Assembly (NCBI RefSeq): GCF_001941625.1
Contig: NZ_CP016076.1
Location: 3,038,001-3,102,000, forward strand
Length of the DNA: 64,000 nucleotides
Source of the DNA: Actinoalloteichus fjordicus
Lineage (GTDB): Bacteria > Actinomycetota > Actinomycetes > Mycobacteriales > Pseudonocardiaceae
Direction of reading: 5' to 3'
How positions within the stretch are numbered: position 1 is the first letter of the stretch; every line of letters begins with the position of its first letter. The position numbers and the translations under genes were made by a program. Shown here in pieces: positions 46 through 11,754 of this stretch. A model generated the notes under the pieces. It had not been told where the DNA came from and did not search any database. It was given only the letters and a program-made list of their open reading frames with translations.

Positions 46-261
46 TCAGCCCAGATGGTCGAACCTGCCAGCCTTGATGCTGGTGATCCAGTCGCTGACC
101 TCGGTGCCGCTGAAGCAGATGACTCCGCCAGCGGGGTTCTTGCTGTCGCGGAGGGCGATACTCCCGTCCGGGAACGCCGCCACCTCGATGCAGTTTCCGT
201 TGCCGGGCCCGCCGCCGCCGGAGAAACTGCTCTTGCGCCAGTGAGCGCCCTCGATGTCCAT
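46..261 (-). CDS. DUF397 domain small protein
   Basis: This is a 71-residue protein of the DUF397 family, small acidic proteins found beside XRE/DUF5753 regulators throughout actinomycetes. The hallmark blocks WRKSSFS, NCIEVA and ALRDSK are all present, followed by a short C-terminal stretch (SDWITSIKAGRFD). An ATG at 261 lies 7 bp after the stop of the upstream regulator and has a GAGG-like ribosome site overlapping that stop, so I prefer it to a TTG at 297 inside the regulator. The two genes are probably co-transcribed and translationally coupled. In characterised relatives the pair behaves as a toxin/antitoxin-like or developmental regulatory module; the exact role here is unknown. Confidence 0.9.
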   Translation of the reverse strand: MDIEGAHWRKSSFSGGGGPGNGNCIEVAAFPDGSIALRDSKNPAGGVICFSGTEVSDWITSIKAGRFDHLG

Positions 262-268
262 GTCGACC

Positions 269-1159
269 TCATTCGTCTCGCTCGACGTTCGTCGCAACTG
301 TGTTGATCAATGATACTGATTCGCTCTGCGTCAAAGCCTGCTCGGAGAGAGCACCGAAGCGCAAGGTGTACGTTCGCACATGGTCGCGATCTTCGAAGTA
401 CACGGCGCGTCCAGGCGCGTCGGCGTAGCCGACGTCGGGGATCGGGTCCGGGAGCGTGAGGATGGAGAACGGGCCTTCCAATGCAGGGCTTGCACCCACG
501 GACTTCGGGAGTACCTGAATGGTGATATTGGGTGCCTCGCAGGCCTCGGCGATCTGTCGCAGTTGACGTTGCATTACCCGACGGCCACCGACCGGACGTT
601 CTAGAAGTCCTGCATCGAGGATCGCGTGCAGACGGGGTGGCTTGGTGCGGCTCAGGATCTGTTGGCGCGTGATACGGGCGACCACCCGACGCTCTACCTC
701 GTCTTCGCTCAATCCCGGGTCGATGCCGCTGATCAGTGCACGAGCGTAGTCGGCGGTTTGAAGGAGGCCTGGAACCAACAGCGTCTCAAACTGTCGGTGT
801 TCCAGCAGAGCGGTTTCGAGCATCAGGAAGCGATGGAAGTCCTCGGGCAGGTTCCTCTGGATGTCCACTGTCCAGCCGTGGCGCTTCGGGGTTCCTGCGA
901 GTTCGAGCAGGGACTCACGAAGTTCCCGGTCTCGCACCTGATACACATCGAGAAGCTGGTCGACCTCGCGAACTCGAACGCCTTGCTCGCGGTTCTCGAT
1001 TCGCGACAGCTTCGGGCGAGACCACTTTCCTTCGCCCTTGCGTAGCTCGGCTACGACCTGATCGTGGGTAAGTCCCGCCTGTTCCCGCAGTTGACGCAAG
1101 GCCTCGGTGAGCTGCCATCGTCGAACAGTGGTGTTGCCAGCCAGGTGGCCGTCGAACAT
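269..1159 (-). CDS. XRE-family regulator with DUF5753 (Scr1 type)
   Basis: This is a 296-residue DNA-binding protein. The N-terminal helix-turn-helix covers about residues 14-72 (LREQAGLTHDQVVAEL, then WSRPKLSRIENREQGV), and the C-terminal two thirds match the DUF5753 ligand/partner domain (LETALLEHRQFETLLVPGLLQ; then ITIQVLPKSVGASPALEGPF). The ATG has a strong GAGGAG ribosome site. It is the first gene of a two-gene unit with the DUF397 gene. A near-perfect 22-bp palindrome about 55 bp upstream is the likely autoregulatory operator and also faces the divergent gene at 1299. The family assignment is firm; the regulated process cannot be told from the sequence. Confidence 0.93.
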   Translation of the reverse strand: MFDGHLAGNTTVRRWQLTEALRQLREQAGLTHDQVVAELRKGEGKWSRPKLSRIENREQGVRVREVDQLLDVYQVRDRELRESLLELAGTPKRHGWTVDIQRNLPEDFHRFLMLETALLEHRQFETLLVPGLLQTADYARALISGIDPGLSEDEVERRVVARITRQQILSRTKPPRLHAILDAGLLERPVGGRRVMQRQLRQIAEACEAPNITIQVLPKSVGASPALEGPFSILTLPDPIPDVGYADAPGRAVYFEDRDHVRTYTLRFGALSEQALTQSESVSLINTVATNVERDE

Positions 1160-1298: not shown

Positions 1299-1640
1299 AT
1301 GTCGGCGAAGGATGTTAGTGATCTTCATGATGGTGTCGAGCCGGAGGTCGGCTCGACGTCTTCTCTTCCCGCCCCGCCGCCCCGTGCCTTCGAGGAGCGG
1401 GTCCAAGCACTCGTCGATGAGGAGGCGCCTCGGGTATTCGCGCTGGTACGGGAGTACGACGAGCGTCCCGGTGCCCATGTTCATGCCTGGGGCATGGCCT
1501 TTCCCGACCATGTCGAGATCGTCTCCACCGGCGGTGGCGTCCGGATGAGCATGGGAACGCTCGATCGCGCGTTGGCGGGTCTCCGTGTGCCGGGAGCGAT
1601 CAACCACGTCTTCTGGGCGGCCTCCGTCGCGCCGCTCTAG
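1299..1640 (+). CDS. Hypothetical protein, 113 aa
   Basis: This is a 113-residue soluble protein with no signal peptide or membrane segment and no motif I recognise. An acidic, proline-containing N-terminus (about residues 1-30) is followed by a compact alpha/beta-looking region with the sequence blocks ALVREYDERPGAHVHAWGM and RMSMGTLDRALAGL. The ATG has a good GAGGAG site. It is divergent from the XRE/DUF397 pair and shares the palindromic operator region, which suggests that it belongs to the same regulatory module, perhaps as an effector or accessory protein. A hairpin follows the stop. The gene is convincing by codon bias and ribosome site; the function is unknown. Confidence 0.75.
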   Translation: MSAKDVSDLHDGVEPEVGSTSSLPAPPPRAFEERVQALVDEEAPRVFALVREYDERPGAHVHAWGMAFPDHVEIVSTGGGVRMSMGTLDRALAGLRVPGAINHVFWAASVAPL

Positions 1641-1664: not shown

Positions 1665-1899
1665 CGATTCTCGGCTCGACCGGATGGCAGCGCAGGGCGG
1701 AGCGGCGGGCCCGCCGGTCACCCGGTGACGGCGGCCTGTCGGGGGCCGCTCCCCGCCCCAATCGGCGCACGTCCCGCCCGCCGATCCGGAGTTCACTCGA
1801 TGGGATCTTGTTCCGTGCGGGGCGCAGGCCACCCTCCATAGCCTGTGCATAGGCAGGAGCGAAGGGCCGGGCTCAATTGTTTCGAGGGGGCGCGTCACC

Positions 1900-2025
1900 G
1901 TGGCCAAGCATGAGAACAAGTCGCAGGATGACGGGCAGGGCACCTACGACCCGACCGCCACGAAGTCGGCCGAGGAGTCCGGCGGCGGGAAGCACGATCG
2001 GGACGACAAGGGCCATGAAGGCTAA
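1900..2025 (+). CDS. Candidate RiPP precursor peptide, 41 aa
   Basis: A GTG-initiated reading frame encodes 41 residues, with a strong AGGGGG ribosome site 10 nt before the start. The peptide is extremely hydrophilic: Lys, Asp, Glu, His, Gly and Ser dominate and there is no hydrophobic stretch. Notable blocks are KSQDDGQGTYDPTA in the first half and GGGKHDRDDKGHEG at the C-terminus; it contains one Asp-Gly step (Asp11-Gly12), the classical aspartimide-prone dipeptide. It ends 29 bp before a protein-isoaspartate methyltransferase homologue. Such homologues paired with a short peptide gene form the aspartimide-containing RiPP classes (imiditides, and fuscimiditide with an added ATP-grasp enzyme). 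No ATP-grasp, lanthionine or lasso enzyme is nearby. Being the substrate is an inference from gene order and composition. Confidence 0.6.
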   Translation: MAKHENKSQDDGQGTYDPTATKSAEESGGGKHDRDDKGHEG

Positions 2026-2054
2026 GGGCCGTGAAGACCAGGGACTAGAAGTAG

Positions 2055-3209
2055 ATGACGGCTGATCCCTCGGCGCCCGCGTGGCGGGCGTTGTTCGAGG
2101 AGGTGAGGAGGGCGGTGTTCATCCCGGACACCATCTGGGTCGATGTCTCGAACGAGCCGGGTTACCGCGCGGTGTCGCGCCACCGCGACCGCACGGCGTG
2201 GGAGACGGCGGTCGCCGCGAATCGGCCGGTGGTCACCCAGATCAACCTCGGCGAGCCACACCGTGCGGGCGGGGAGAACTTCCCGACGTCCTCGTCGAGC
2301 CAGCCGAGCATCGTGGCGGACATGCTCGCGGCGCTCGATCCGCAGCCTGGTGACTCGGTGTTGGAGATCGGCACCGGCACCGGTTGGAACGCGGCCCTGC
2401 TGAAGCACCGGGTCGGCCCGGCCGGACACGTCACCACGATCGAAGTCGATCCGGGACTCGCCGAGGCCGCTCGCGCGGCGCTCGACGCCTCGGGATTCAC
2501 CGCCCGCGTGGTCACTGGAGACGGTGAGGCAGGCTGTCCGGTGGCGGCTCCGTTCGATCGGGTGATCTCCACCGCCTCGGTGCGGGAGGTCGTCCCGAGG
2601 GCCTGGCTCGAGCAGTTGCGTCCCGGCGGTCGGCTGGTCACCCCGTGGAGCACCGACTACGCCACGGGCGCCCTGCTCGCCATCGACCTCGGGGCGAACG
2701 GCGTCGCGGGCGGCCGGTTCGCTACCCGGCTGTCCTTCATGCGGCTGCGGGCGCATCGGCGCGGGCTGTTCGGGTGGGAGCCGGACGAGGCCACGATCGC
2801 CCGCGCGGCGGTCCGAATCACCGAATGCCGCAACATCGACCTGGACCGGATGCTCGACCCCGCGCGAGGCAACCTGGCCATCGGCGTCCGGCTGCACGAC
2901 GTGTCCCTGGCACTCGGCCGTGACCGGCACGGCCCCGGCCACCACGTTGTCGAGCTGGACGATGCGACGACGCGCTCCTTCGCCCGCCTCGACTGGCCGA
3001 CGGCTGCCGCCGAGCCGTTCACCGTCGGCCAGTTCGGCCCACGTCGCCTCTGGGACGAGGCCGAAGACGCCTATGACTGGTGGTATGAACGCGGTCAGCC
3101 CGGCCCGGAACGGCTCGGCCTCACCATCGACCTCGCCTCCGGTCGCCAGATCGCATGGCTGGACGATCCCGACACCATCGTCCGTACCTGGTGGCTACCG
3201 AGAAGCTGA
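2055..3209 (+). CDS. Protein-isoaspartate methyltransferase homologue (RiPP-associated type)
   Basis: This is a 384-residue SAM-dependent methyltransferase of the PCMT family. SAM motif I, VLEIGTGTGWNAALL, is at about 103-117; the preceding GGENFPTSSSSQPSIVADML matches the substrate loop and Ser-rich entry of PCMT enzymes. Ordinary repair PCMTs are about 210 residues; this one adds roughly 170 C-terminal residues (including RLWDEAEDAYDWW and ASGRQIAWLDDPDTIVRTW), as in homologues that work on ribosomal peptides. It methylates Asp side chains, which then cyclise to aspartimide. It follows the 41-residue peptide gene by 29 bp and is probably co-transcribed. The methyltransferase assignment is firm; the RiPP role is inferred. 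Confidence 0.88.
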   Translation: MTADPSAPAWRALFEEVRRAVFIPDTIWVDVSNEPGYRAVSRHRDRTAWETAVAANRPVVTQINLGEPHRAGGENFPTSSSSQPSIVADMLAALDPQPGDSVLEIGTGTGWNAALLKHRVGPAGHVTTIEVDPGLAEAARAALDASGFTARVVTGDGEAGCPVAAPFDRVISTASVREVVPRAWLEQLRPGGRLVTPWSTDYATGALLAIDLGANGVAGGRFATRLSFMRLRAHRRGLFGWEPDEATIARAAVRITECRNIDLDRMLDPARGNLAIGVRLHDVSLALGRDRHGPGHHVVELDDATTRSFARLDWPTAAAEPFTVGQFGPRRLWDEAEDAYDWWYERGQPGPERLGLTIDLASGRQIAWLDDPDTIVRTWWLPRS

Positions 3210-10536: not shown

Positions 10537-11754
10537 CTAGCCGGTGATCAGGAGCGCGGCGACGCTCGCCGCCAGCGCGAGGACGGCGAGGACGAGGCCC
10601 GTGCGCACGAATCGGCGCAGCGGCACCACGAGCCCGTTCGCGCGGCAGGACTCCAGACACAGCAGCGTCGCCAGTGACGCCCACGGGGTGACGACGGCGC
10701 CGACGTTCGTCCCGATCAGCAGGGCCAGCAGCTGATCCCCGTTCGCAGGCGGCACGACGGCCTCTCCTGCGGCGTAGGCGGGCAGGTTGTTGATCACATT
10801 CGACAGACCGGCGCCCGTCAGCGCCGCCCGGACGGCGCCGCCGACGTCGTCGGAGGTGCCGATCAACGCCGTCATCACCTCCGCGAGGCCGTGTCGGCTC
10901 AGGGTGGGGATCACCAGGAACAGCCCGGCGACCAGGATGAGCAGCCGCCAGGGGATCAGGCTCAGCCGCAACGCCTGCCGGTCCAGCACGGCGAAGGCCG
11001 CCACCACGATCAGCGCGGCCCCGGCGGCGGCGAGGCTGATCCCCTCGTGCAGGAAGATCACGGCGCCGACGAACAGGACGCAGGCCCCCGCCGCGACCGC
11101 GCACAGACCGCGCTCCCTCGGCTGCTCCAGCCGGACCGGCGACGGCGGCAGATAGCGATCGGCGCCTCGGGCGCCCCGGCGCCAGTAGAACGCCCACAGC
11201 GCCGCCGTCGTCACCAGGATCGCCGCCAGCTGCGGCGCCCACATCCGGGCCGCGAAGTCCTCGGCGTCCAGCGCGACGCGATCGGCCGCCAACAGGTTGG
11301 TCAGGTTGGACACCGGCAGCAGCAGGCTGGCGGTGTTCGCGAGCCAGATGGTGGTCATCGCCAGCGGCAGCGCGGCGATCTTCGCCCTGGGGGCCAGTGC
11401 GAGGAACACCGGTGTGAGCAGGACGGCGGTCGTGTCGAGATTGAGGAAGACGGTCGTCACCGAGGCGAAGCCGACGCACAGTAGGAACAGTGCCGGGTAG
11501 TTCCCGCCGCCGATGATCGCGATCCGGGTGGCGATGACGTCGAAGACCCTGGCGCGCATCGCCAGTTCCGCAAGCACGATCACACTGCCGAGGAACAGCA
11601 GCAGCGGAGCGACCCTGGCGATGCTCGCCGCCGCCTCGTCGGCGGGCAACGCTCCGGTGAGCACGAAGATCACGCCGAGGAGGAGCAGACCGATCCTGAC
11701 CCGGTCGAGCGCGCTCGGCATGCGCGGAATGCGGGACAGCCGCGGGGAGACCAC
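10537..11754 (-). CDS. ArsB/NhaD-superfamily anion permease
   Basis: This is a 405-residue integral membrane transporter with about eleven hydrophobic segments. Family signatures include FLNLDTTAVLLTPVFLAL in the first half and the symmetric GLSNVINNLPAYAAGEA in the second, the two re-entrant-type motifs of the ion-transporter superfamily that includes ArsB, NhaD and SLC13 carriers. I place the start at a GTG (11754) preceded by CAGGA; an ATG at 11721 is the alternative, and the upstream open frame is arginine-rich and not credible. No arsR, arsC or other arsenic genes are adjacent, so arsenite export is not supported and the transported anion is unknown. Confidence 0.85.
   Translation of the reverse strand: MVSPRLSRIPRMPSALDRVRIGLLLLGVIFVLTGALPADEAAASIARVAPLLLFLGSVIVLAELAMRARVFDVIATRIAIIGGGNYPALFLLCVGFASVTTVFLNLDTTAVLLTPVFLALAPRAKIAALPLAMTTIWLANTASLLLPVSNLTNLLAADRVALDAEDFAARMWAPQLAAILVTTAALWAFYWRRGARGADRYLPPSPVRLEQPRERGLCAVAAGACVLFVGAVIFLHEGISLAAAGAALIVVAAFAVLDRQALRLSLIPWRLLILVAGLFLVIPTLSRHGLAEVMTALIGTSDDVGGAVRAALTGAGLSNVINNLPAYAAGEAVVPPANGDQLLALLIGTNVGAVVTPWASLATLLCLESCRANGLVVPLRRFVRTGLVLAVLALAASVAALLITG

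Follow-up and report, generated by a model that had tools for sequence, protein, structure and literature searches.

A candidate two-gene imiditide locus with an acidic, proline-poor precursor peptide in Actinoalloteichus fjordicus

The window analyzed here, a stretch of 64,000 nucleotides from a source genome assembled as a single 7.12 Mb contig, contains a 41-codon gene followed directly by a methyltransferase gene. These most likely form a two-gene imiditide (type I pamtide) operon, in which Asp11 of the encoded peptide would be methylated and thereby converted to an aspartimide; we put the probability of this reading at about 80%. With high probability, the enzyme converts a single peptide aspartate to the ring or its rearranged form. 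Imiditides were reportedly first described in 2023; the class is already known, and the locus would be a new member of it. The first-pass annotation had proposed a two-gene aspartimide RiPP system, and this proposal is supported by the conservation of the pair, by the placement of the enzyme apart from a repair methyltransferase, and by the presence in print of a class of systems described as a precursor and a PIMT homologue and nothing else (PMC13001092, PMC10787088).

A conserved pair of precursor and methyltransferase genes

The precursor gene (1900..2025, forward strand) starts with GTG, stops with TAA, and encodes the 41-residue peptide MAKHENKSQDDGQGTYDPTATKSAEESGGGKHDRDDKGHEG; a Shine-Dalgarno-like GAGGGGG (1884..1890) lies nine bases 5' of the start, and both the frame and the ribosome site originally claimed could thus be read directly. 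A profile built from ten relatives, with the window sequence excluded, was run against the window in six frames and matched the peptide at E 4e-14, as compared with 3.9 for the next segment. Codon differences among the precursors amount to 0.27, 0.28, and 0.47 per codon at positions 1, 2, and 3 (28 pairs from 8 genes), and dN is lower than dS in all 25 pairs with computable dS, by a tiny margin in a few, dS being saturated in three of the 28. The 41-codon frame is a real gene and not a chance reading frame. Other open reading frames over 1900-2025, on both strands, were considered as the conserved element and rejected, as the profile matches only the segment with the 41-codon frame. The peptide is rich in glycine (17.1%) and aspartate (14.6%), contains 2.4% proline, and has a net charge of −4; precursors of the same clade average 2.9% proline and are all net negative, from −1 to −6 (n = 11; K + R counted against D + E). 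Acidic and basic residues are conserved at both ends of the precursor (alignment A1).

The second gene (2055..3209, forward strand) begins with an ATG 29 bp beyond the precursor stop, the spacing that had been claimed for it, and encodes a PAMT-type O-methyltransferase of 384 aa. It is identified as a PIMT homologue by matches to TIGR04188 (274.5 bits over residues 7-361, a full-length match that falls below the family cut-off of 380) and PF01135 (100.9 bits), the latter marking the catalytic core at residues 79-200 (2289..2654), and by an AlphaFold2 model (pLDDT 89.6) whose best PDB match is 1dl5, aligned over model residues 3-371. With its core extending to about residue 200, the protein has the length of at least 300 aa and the C-terminal extension of more than 100 aa expected of imiditide (type I pamtide) PIMT homologues; its enlargement relative to repair enzymes of about 210 aa, noted in the first-pass annotation, holds against E. 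coli Pcm (208 aa) as a yardstick. The WXXXGXP motif reported for imiditide PIMTs (PMC13001092) occurs in the C-terminal domain as WYERGQP (residues 343-349; 3081..3101). In a tree of 40 rows, the window enzyme groups with PAMTs whose genes come after precursors like its own, while E. coli Pcm, the single repair enzyme included, lies outside on a long branch; clustering with repair PCMTs, which had been named as grounds for abandoning the proposal, is thus not seen with respect to this one repair enzyme. The enzyme is a member of the PIMT group associated with RiPPs. The source genome has 12 TIGR04188-type methyltransferases (e.g., L090-L101), two in the pamtide clade and ten in another, graspetide-like clade; the second pamtide-clade enzyme (G000:C1:4344435) is accompanied by the precursor MGKKDSDRDGQGDAQPEKWENWGSKDDQNKHESDDK, and at least four of the ten graspetide-like paralogues directly follow an ATP-grasp maturase.

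The two genes were found together whether the search started from the peptide or from the enzyme. Querying 100 genomes (its own included) with the single peptide sequence identified three other places at E ≤1e-5 (G038, G002, and G012), each directly 5' of a homologue of the window enzyme. The closest methyltransferases in 390 genomes occupy 16 places at E ≤1e-92, and the precursor directly 5' is intact in 13 of these and broken or partial in three (G216 copy 1, G002, and G276 C2). A reverse search of 386 genomes of the family with a profile of 11 precursors returned 22 rows, corresponding to 21 places; a PAMT lies just 3' in 17 of the 18 places at E ≤1e-5, of which 11 had supplied the profile, three were known from the enzyme search, and four were new. 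Among the new places the PAMT is present in three (G275, G405, and G176), G405 combining an intact precursor with a PAMT that ends prematurely near residue 238; in G426 the precursor is cut off midway and a PAMT is absent within 1.5 kb. Three places matched more weakly. One (G273) has an intact Asn-Gly precursor and a broken PAMT in a draft genome, where an assembly fault is possible; the other two (G144 and G243; E ~0.01, PAMT absent within 1.5 kb) were rejected as precursors and taken as chance. A class-wide search of 394 genomes at E 0.001 matched only the source genome and G545, in which a PAMT is again directly 3' of the precursor. A lack of conservation of the 41-codon frame beside the methyltransferase had also been proposed as a refutation; the frame is instead found there in other genera. 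Both genes are real, and their adjacency and order are conserved.

In 21 of the 33 pairs examined, the enzyme gene has a possible start that overlaps the precursor stop or directly adjoins it (from four bases before the stop end to directly at it), with true start/stop overlaps such as GTGA or TAGTG in 18 of the 21. This arrangement suggests translational coupling of precursor and PAMT genes, though the window pair, with its 29 bp gap, is not among the overlapping cases.

Broken copies are frequent (L051/L062, L039, L044, L073, L114, L117, and L113), with frameshifted or partial precursors and missing or truncated methyltransferases; the pair may often be gained and lost, and some of the broken copies are possibly assembly faults. 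One genome of the same family (G216) carries two precursor-PAMT copies that seem to correspond to those of Amycolatopsis rubida, which suggests that this family is most likely Pseudonocardiaceae. Window-type precursors also stand beside distant PAMTs in L112 (G275) and L115 (G176), at 38.6% and 39.6% identity, respectively, and both of these enzymes fall outside the window enzyme clade in the tree, a hint that precursor types and enzyme clades are occasionally swapped.

The candidate modification site and its alternatives

The Asp11-Gly12 step singled out in the first-pass annotation is present (1930..1935) and is the best-conserved possible target. Of 14 intact window-type precursors, 13 have Asp at position 11 and one (G012) has Asn; Gly12 is invariant, and no column other than position 11 could give a succinimide in all 14. 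This count leaves out precursors with a frameshift or only partial length (G216 copy 1, G002, G003, G276 C2, and G426), treats G273 and G545 as displayed but uncounted, and includes G405 despite its shortened PAMT. Proline has no amide NH for ring closure. Asp17 was rejected as a target, being replaced by T, E, or Q in three of the 14 and followed by Pro in four. In characterized systems, Gly follows the modified Asp in four graspimiditides (PMC13001092) and in FcaA (PMC10787088). These observations make Asp11 the likely target.

It is unlikely, by comparison, that the methyltransferase modifies Asp36 or another C-terminal Asp and uses the DG step as a binding motif. Asp36 is Asp in all 14 intact precursors, above the 13 of 14 for Asp11, and NmaA remains a substrate when its first 20 residues are removed, so that its target does not lie near the N-terminus (PMC13001092). 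However, Asp36 is followed by Pro in one of the 14, leaving no amide NH there to close a ring, and by Lys or Arg in 11, whereas Gly12 is invariant; a charged neighbor also departs from the Gly that follows the modified Asp in the graspimiditides and FcaA. Considerably less probable is a role for the peptide as a cofactor or regulator of the methyltransferase, whether activator or decoy, with another protein as the true substrate. The peptide has no obvious division into leader and core, the neighbors scanned (~16 kb upstream to 11754) included no dedicated protease or peptide exporter, and an FHA-domain protein has been suggested as the substrate of some PAMTs (PMC10787088); yet all 14 precursors retain a succinimide-competent D/N-G, for which a mere cofactor would have no use, and homologous pairs are reported to modify their peptides (PMC10787088). 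Least credible of all is a diverged repair PIMT that serves damaged proteins generally and adjoins an unrelated small charged peptide, for although the core is clearly PIMT-like and Thermotoga maritima PIMT likewise has the C-terminal domain, both the sequence of the peptide and its place beside the enzyme are maintained across genera, and the repair-type E. coli Pcm lies outside on a long branch.

Under the preferred reading, a two-gene operon with Asp11 as the target, the peptide would be translated first, and the methyltransferase would use S-adenosylmethionine to methylate the Asp11 side chain. The Gly12 amide would then attack the ester, methanol would leave, and the resulting aspartimide would hydrolyze to isoaspartate or aspartate, mostly isoaspartate by analogy with SpaM, FcaM, and NmaM, the relatives for which PAMT chemistry has been reported (PMC10787088, PMC13001092). 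The linear peptide is probably anchored to the C-terminal domain of the enzyme by its own charged N-terminus (AKHEN) and by its C-terminal GGGKHxxDD. The latter corresponds to the segment GGGKHDRDD (residues 28-36; 1981..2007), in which G30 and H32 are conserved at 90% or more and D36 is invariant (alignment A1); its proposed function as a recognition clamp draws on SpaA, in which changing the conserved C-terminal region to Ala was deleterious (PMC10787088). Co-transcription, chemistry, target residue, and recognition segments are thus what we infer from conservation and from these relatives. Charge pairing was considered as a basis for recognition, prompted by a review that links imiditide recognition to opposite charges (PMC13001092), and was rejected: net charges of the enzyme C-terminal domain and of the precursor do not correlate (rho −0.02, n = 27 pairs).

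Asn replaces the target Asp in G012 (L012), where the enzyme is intact, and in G273 (L117), a draft genome in which the enzyme is broken. Asn-Gly can reach a succinimide without an enzyme. The variants would fit a role centered on the product, though two cases prove nothing. The G545 precursor has DG, then a proline run, then GGGRHERDDEG, and appears to link the window type to the proline-rich type; together they suggest a common plan of charged N-terminus, DG[Q/H], variable linker, and GGG[K/R]HxxDD. A profile of the sister, KW-type precursors alone did not match the window peptide; what links the two groups is therefore their shared position, DG[Q/H], the two ends, and the enzyme tree, and not a profile match.

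More tentatively, and on balance doubtfully, the window type may represent an acidic, proline-poor imiditide branch centered on the host's family, in which selection keeps the succinimide-forming dipeptide and not Asp itself. If so, the isoaspartyl or aspartimide product, and not the methyl ester, would be the functional form, and such peptides would act inside or on the cell by means other than cationic membrane binding. The subgroup offers a small, clean test set, as its peptides are short and hydrophilic, have one conserved DG, and come with natural Asn variants and natural broken copies. Such a set can reveal if it is the succinimide or isoaspartate product that matters, and how linear acidic peptides are recognized by a PAMT.

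Genomic neighborhood

Genes around the locus were predicted with a rough GC3 rule. No ATP-grasp, LanB/C/M, or lasso gene was identified with Pfam and NCBIfam among the predicted genes from ~16 kb 5' of the precursor to window position 11754, which agrees, over this interval, with the earlier statement that ATP-grasp, LanM, and lasso cyclase genes are absent nearby. The 3' neighbors are a LysR regulator, a metallo-beta-lactamase-fold protein, an ADP-ribosylglycohydrolase, and an alpha/beta hydrolase, followed by a GntR/aminotransferase regulator and a CitMHS/ArsB-like membrane protein.

On the 5' side, a DUF5753 XRE regulator and a DUF397 protein (46-1159, reverse strand) lie 0.7 kb from the precursor; beyond them are HTH-cupin and TetR regulators, an F420-type reductase, and genes resembling a sugar or sugar-acid uptake and breakdown set. 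When 22 related stretches of 12 to 19 kb were compared, again with rough GC3 gene calls, other families recurred in at most four, except for XRE with DUF5753 (10 of 22) and DUF397. Within the source genome, 7 of the 12 PAMT genes have a DUF5753 gene no more than 10 kb away, as against 1.3 expected under random placement, with no clear excess at 2 kb (1/12) or 5 kb (2/12). Co-occurrence with DUF5753-type regulators has been reported for graspetide groups 11 and 13 (PMC13097080). A 113-aa protein encoded between regulator and precursor (1299-1640, forward strand) has no Pfam or NCBIfam match and two further copies in the source genome; all three copies lie within ~1 kb of a DUF5753 gene, and the protein is therefore probably part of the regulator module rather than of the peptide operon.

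Comparison with known systems

The structural match 1dl5, the Thermotoga maritima PIMT, is named a repair-type PIMT and likewise carries the C-terminal domain; it has 21% identity to the window enzyme and is not known to have a precursor peptide. The graspetide methyltransferases of TIGR04188 (group 13, fuscimiditide) share protein family and domain layout. However, characterized members act on cross-linked peptides (PMC13001092), whereas the window locus has no ATP-grasp maturase among the scanned neighbors, and the ten TIGR04188 paralogues of the source genome form a clade separate from the window enzyme. Type II pamtides, or cysimiditides (FcaA-FcaM), have the same two-gene layout with a PAMT but differ in the peptide: that of the window is free of cysteine and so lacks the CXXCXGXG zinc motif, two copies of which flank the Asp in type II precursors.

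Imiditides (pamtides) are described as a RiPP class in which the PAMT reaction is the sole known modification (PMC13001092), and the type I systems (NmaA-NmaM, SpaA-SpaM) are the closest in kind. The window peptide departs from them in its proline content (2.4% against a published type I mean of 16.8%, which is not strictly defining; PMC10787088), in its net charge (−4, where the review describes strong positive charges; PMC13001092), and in the position of its conserved DG at residues 11-12, the NmaA target being further from the N-terminus (PMC13001092). Type I precursors are on average rich in Gly, Pro, and Asp; the window peptide agrees with this in glycine (17.1%) and aspartate (14.6%) but not in proline. 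The window type is possibly a distinct subgroup, set apart by these published descriptions and averages for type I precursors. Titles and abstract openings of the papers retrieved on imiditides, pamtides, and aspartimide methyltransferases do not describe it, and the locus may already be present in published supplementary precursor lists. With type I pamtides it shares two genes, a charged precursor of ~45 aa, a PIMT homologue whose C-terminal domain carries WXXXGXP, a locus free of other detected RiPP enzymes (~16 kb upstream to 11754), a conserved Asp next to Gly, and conserved charged residues at both ends of the precursor.
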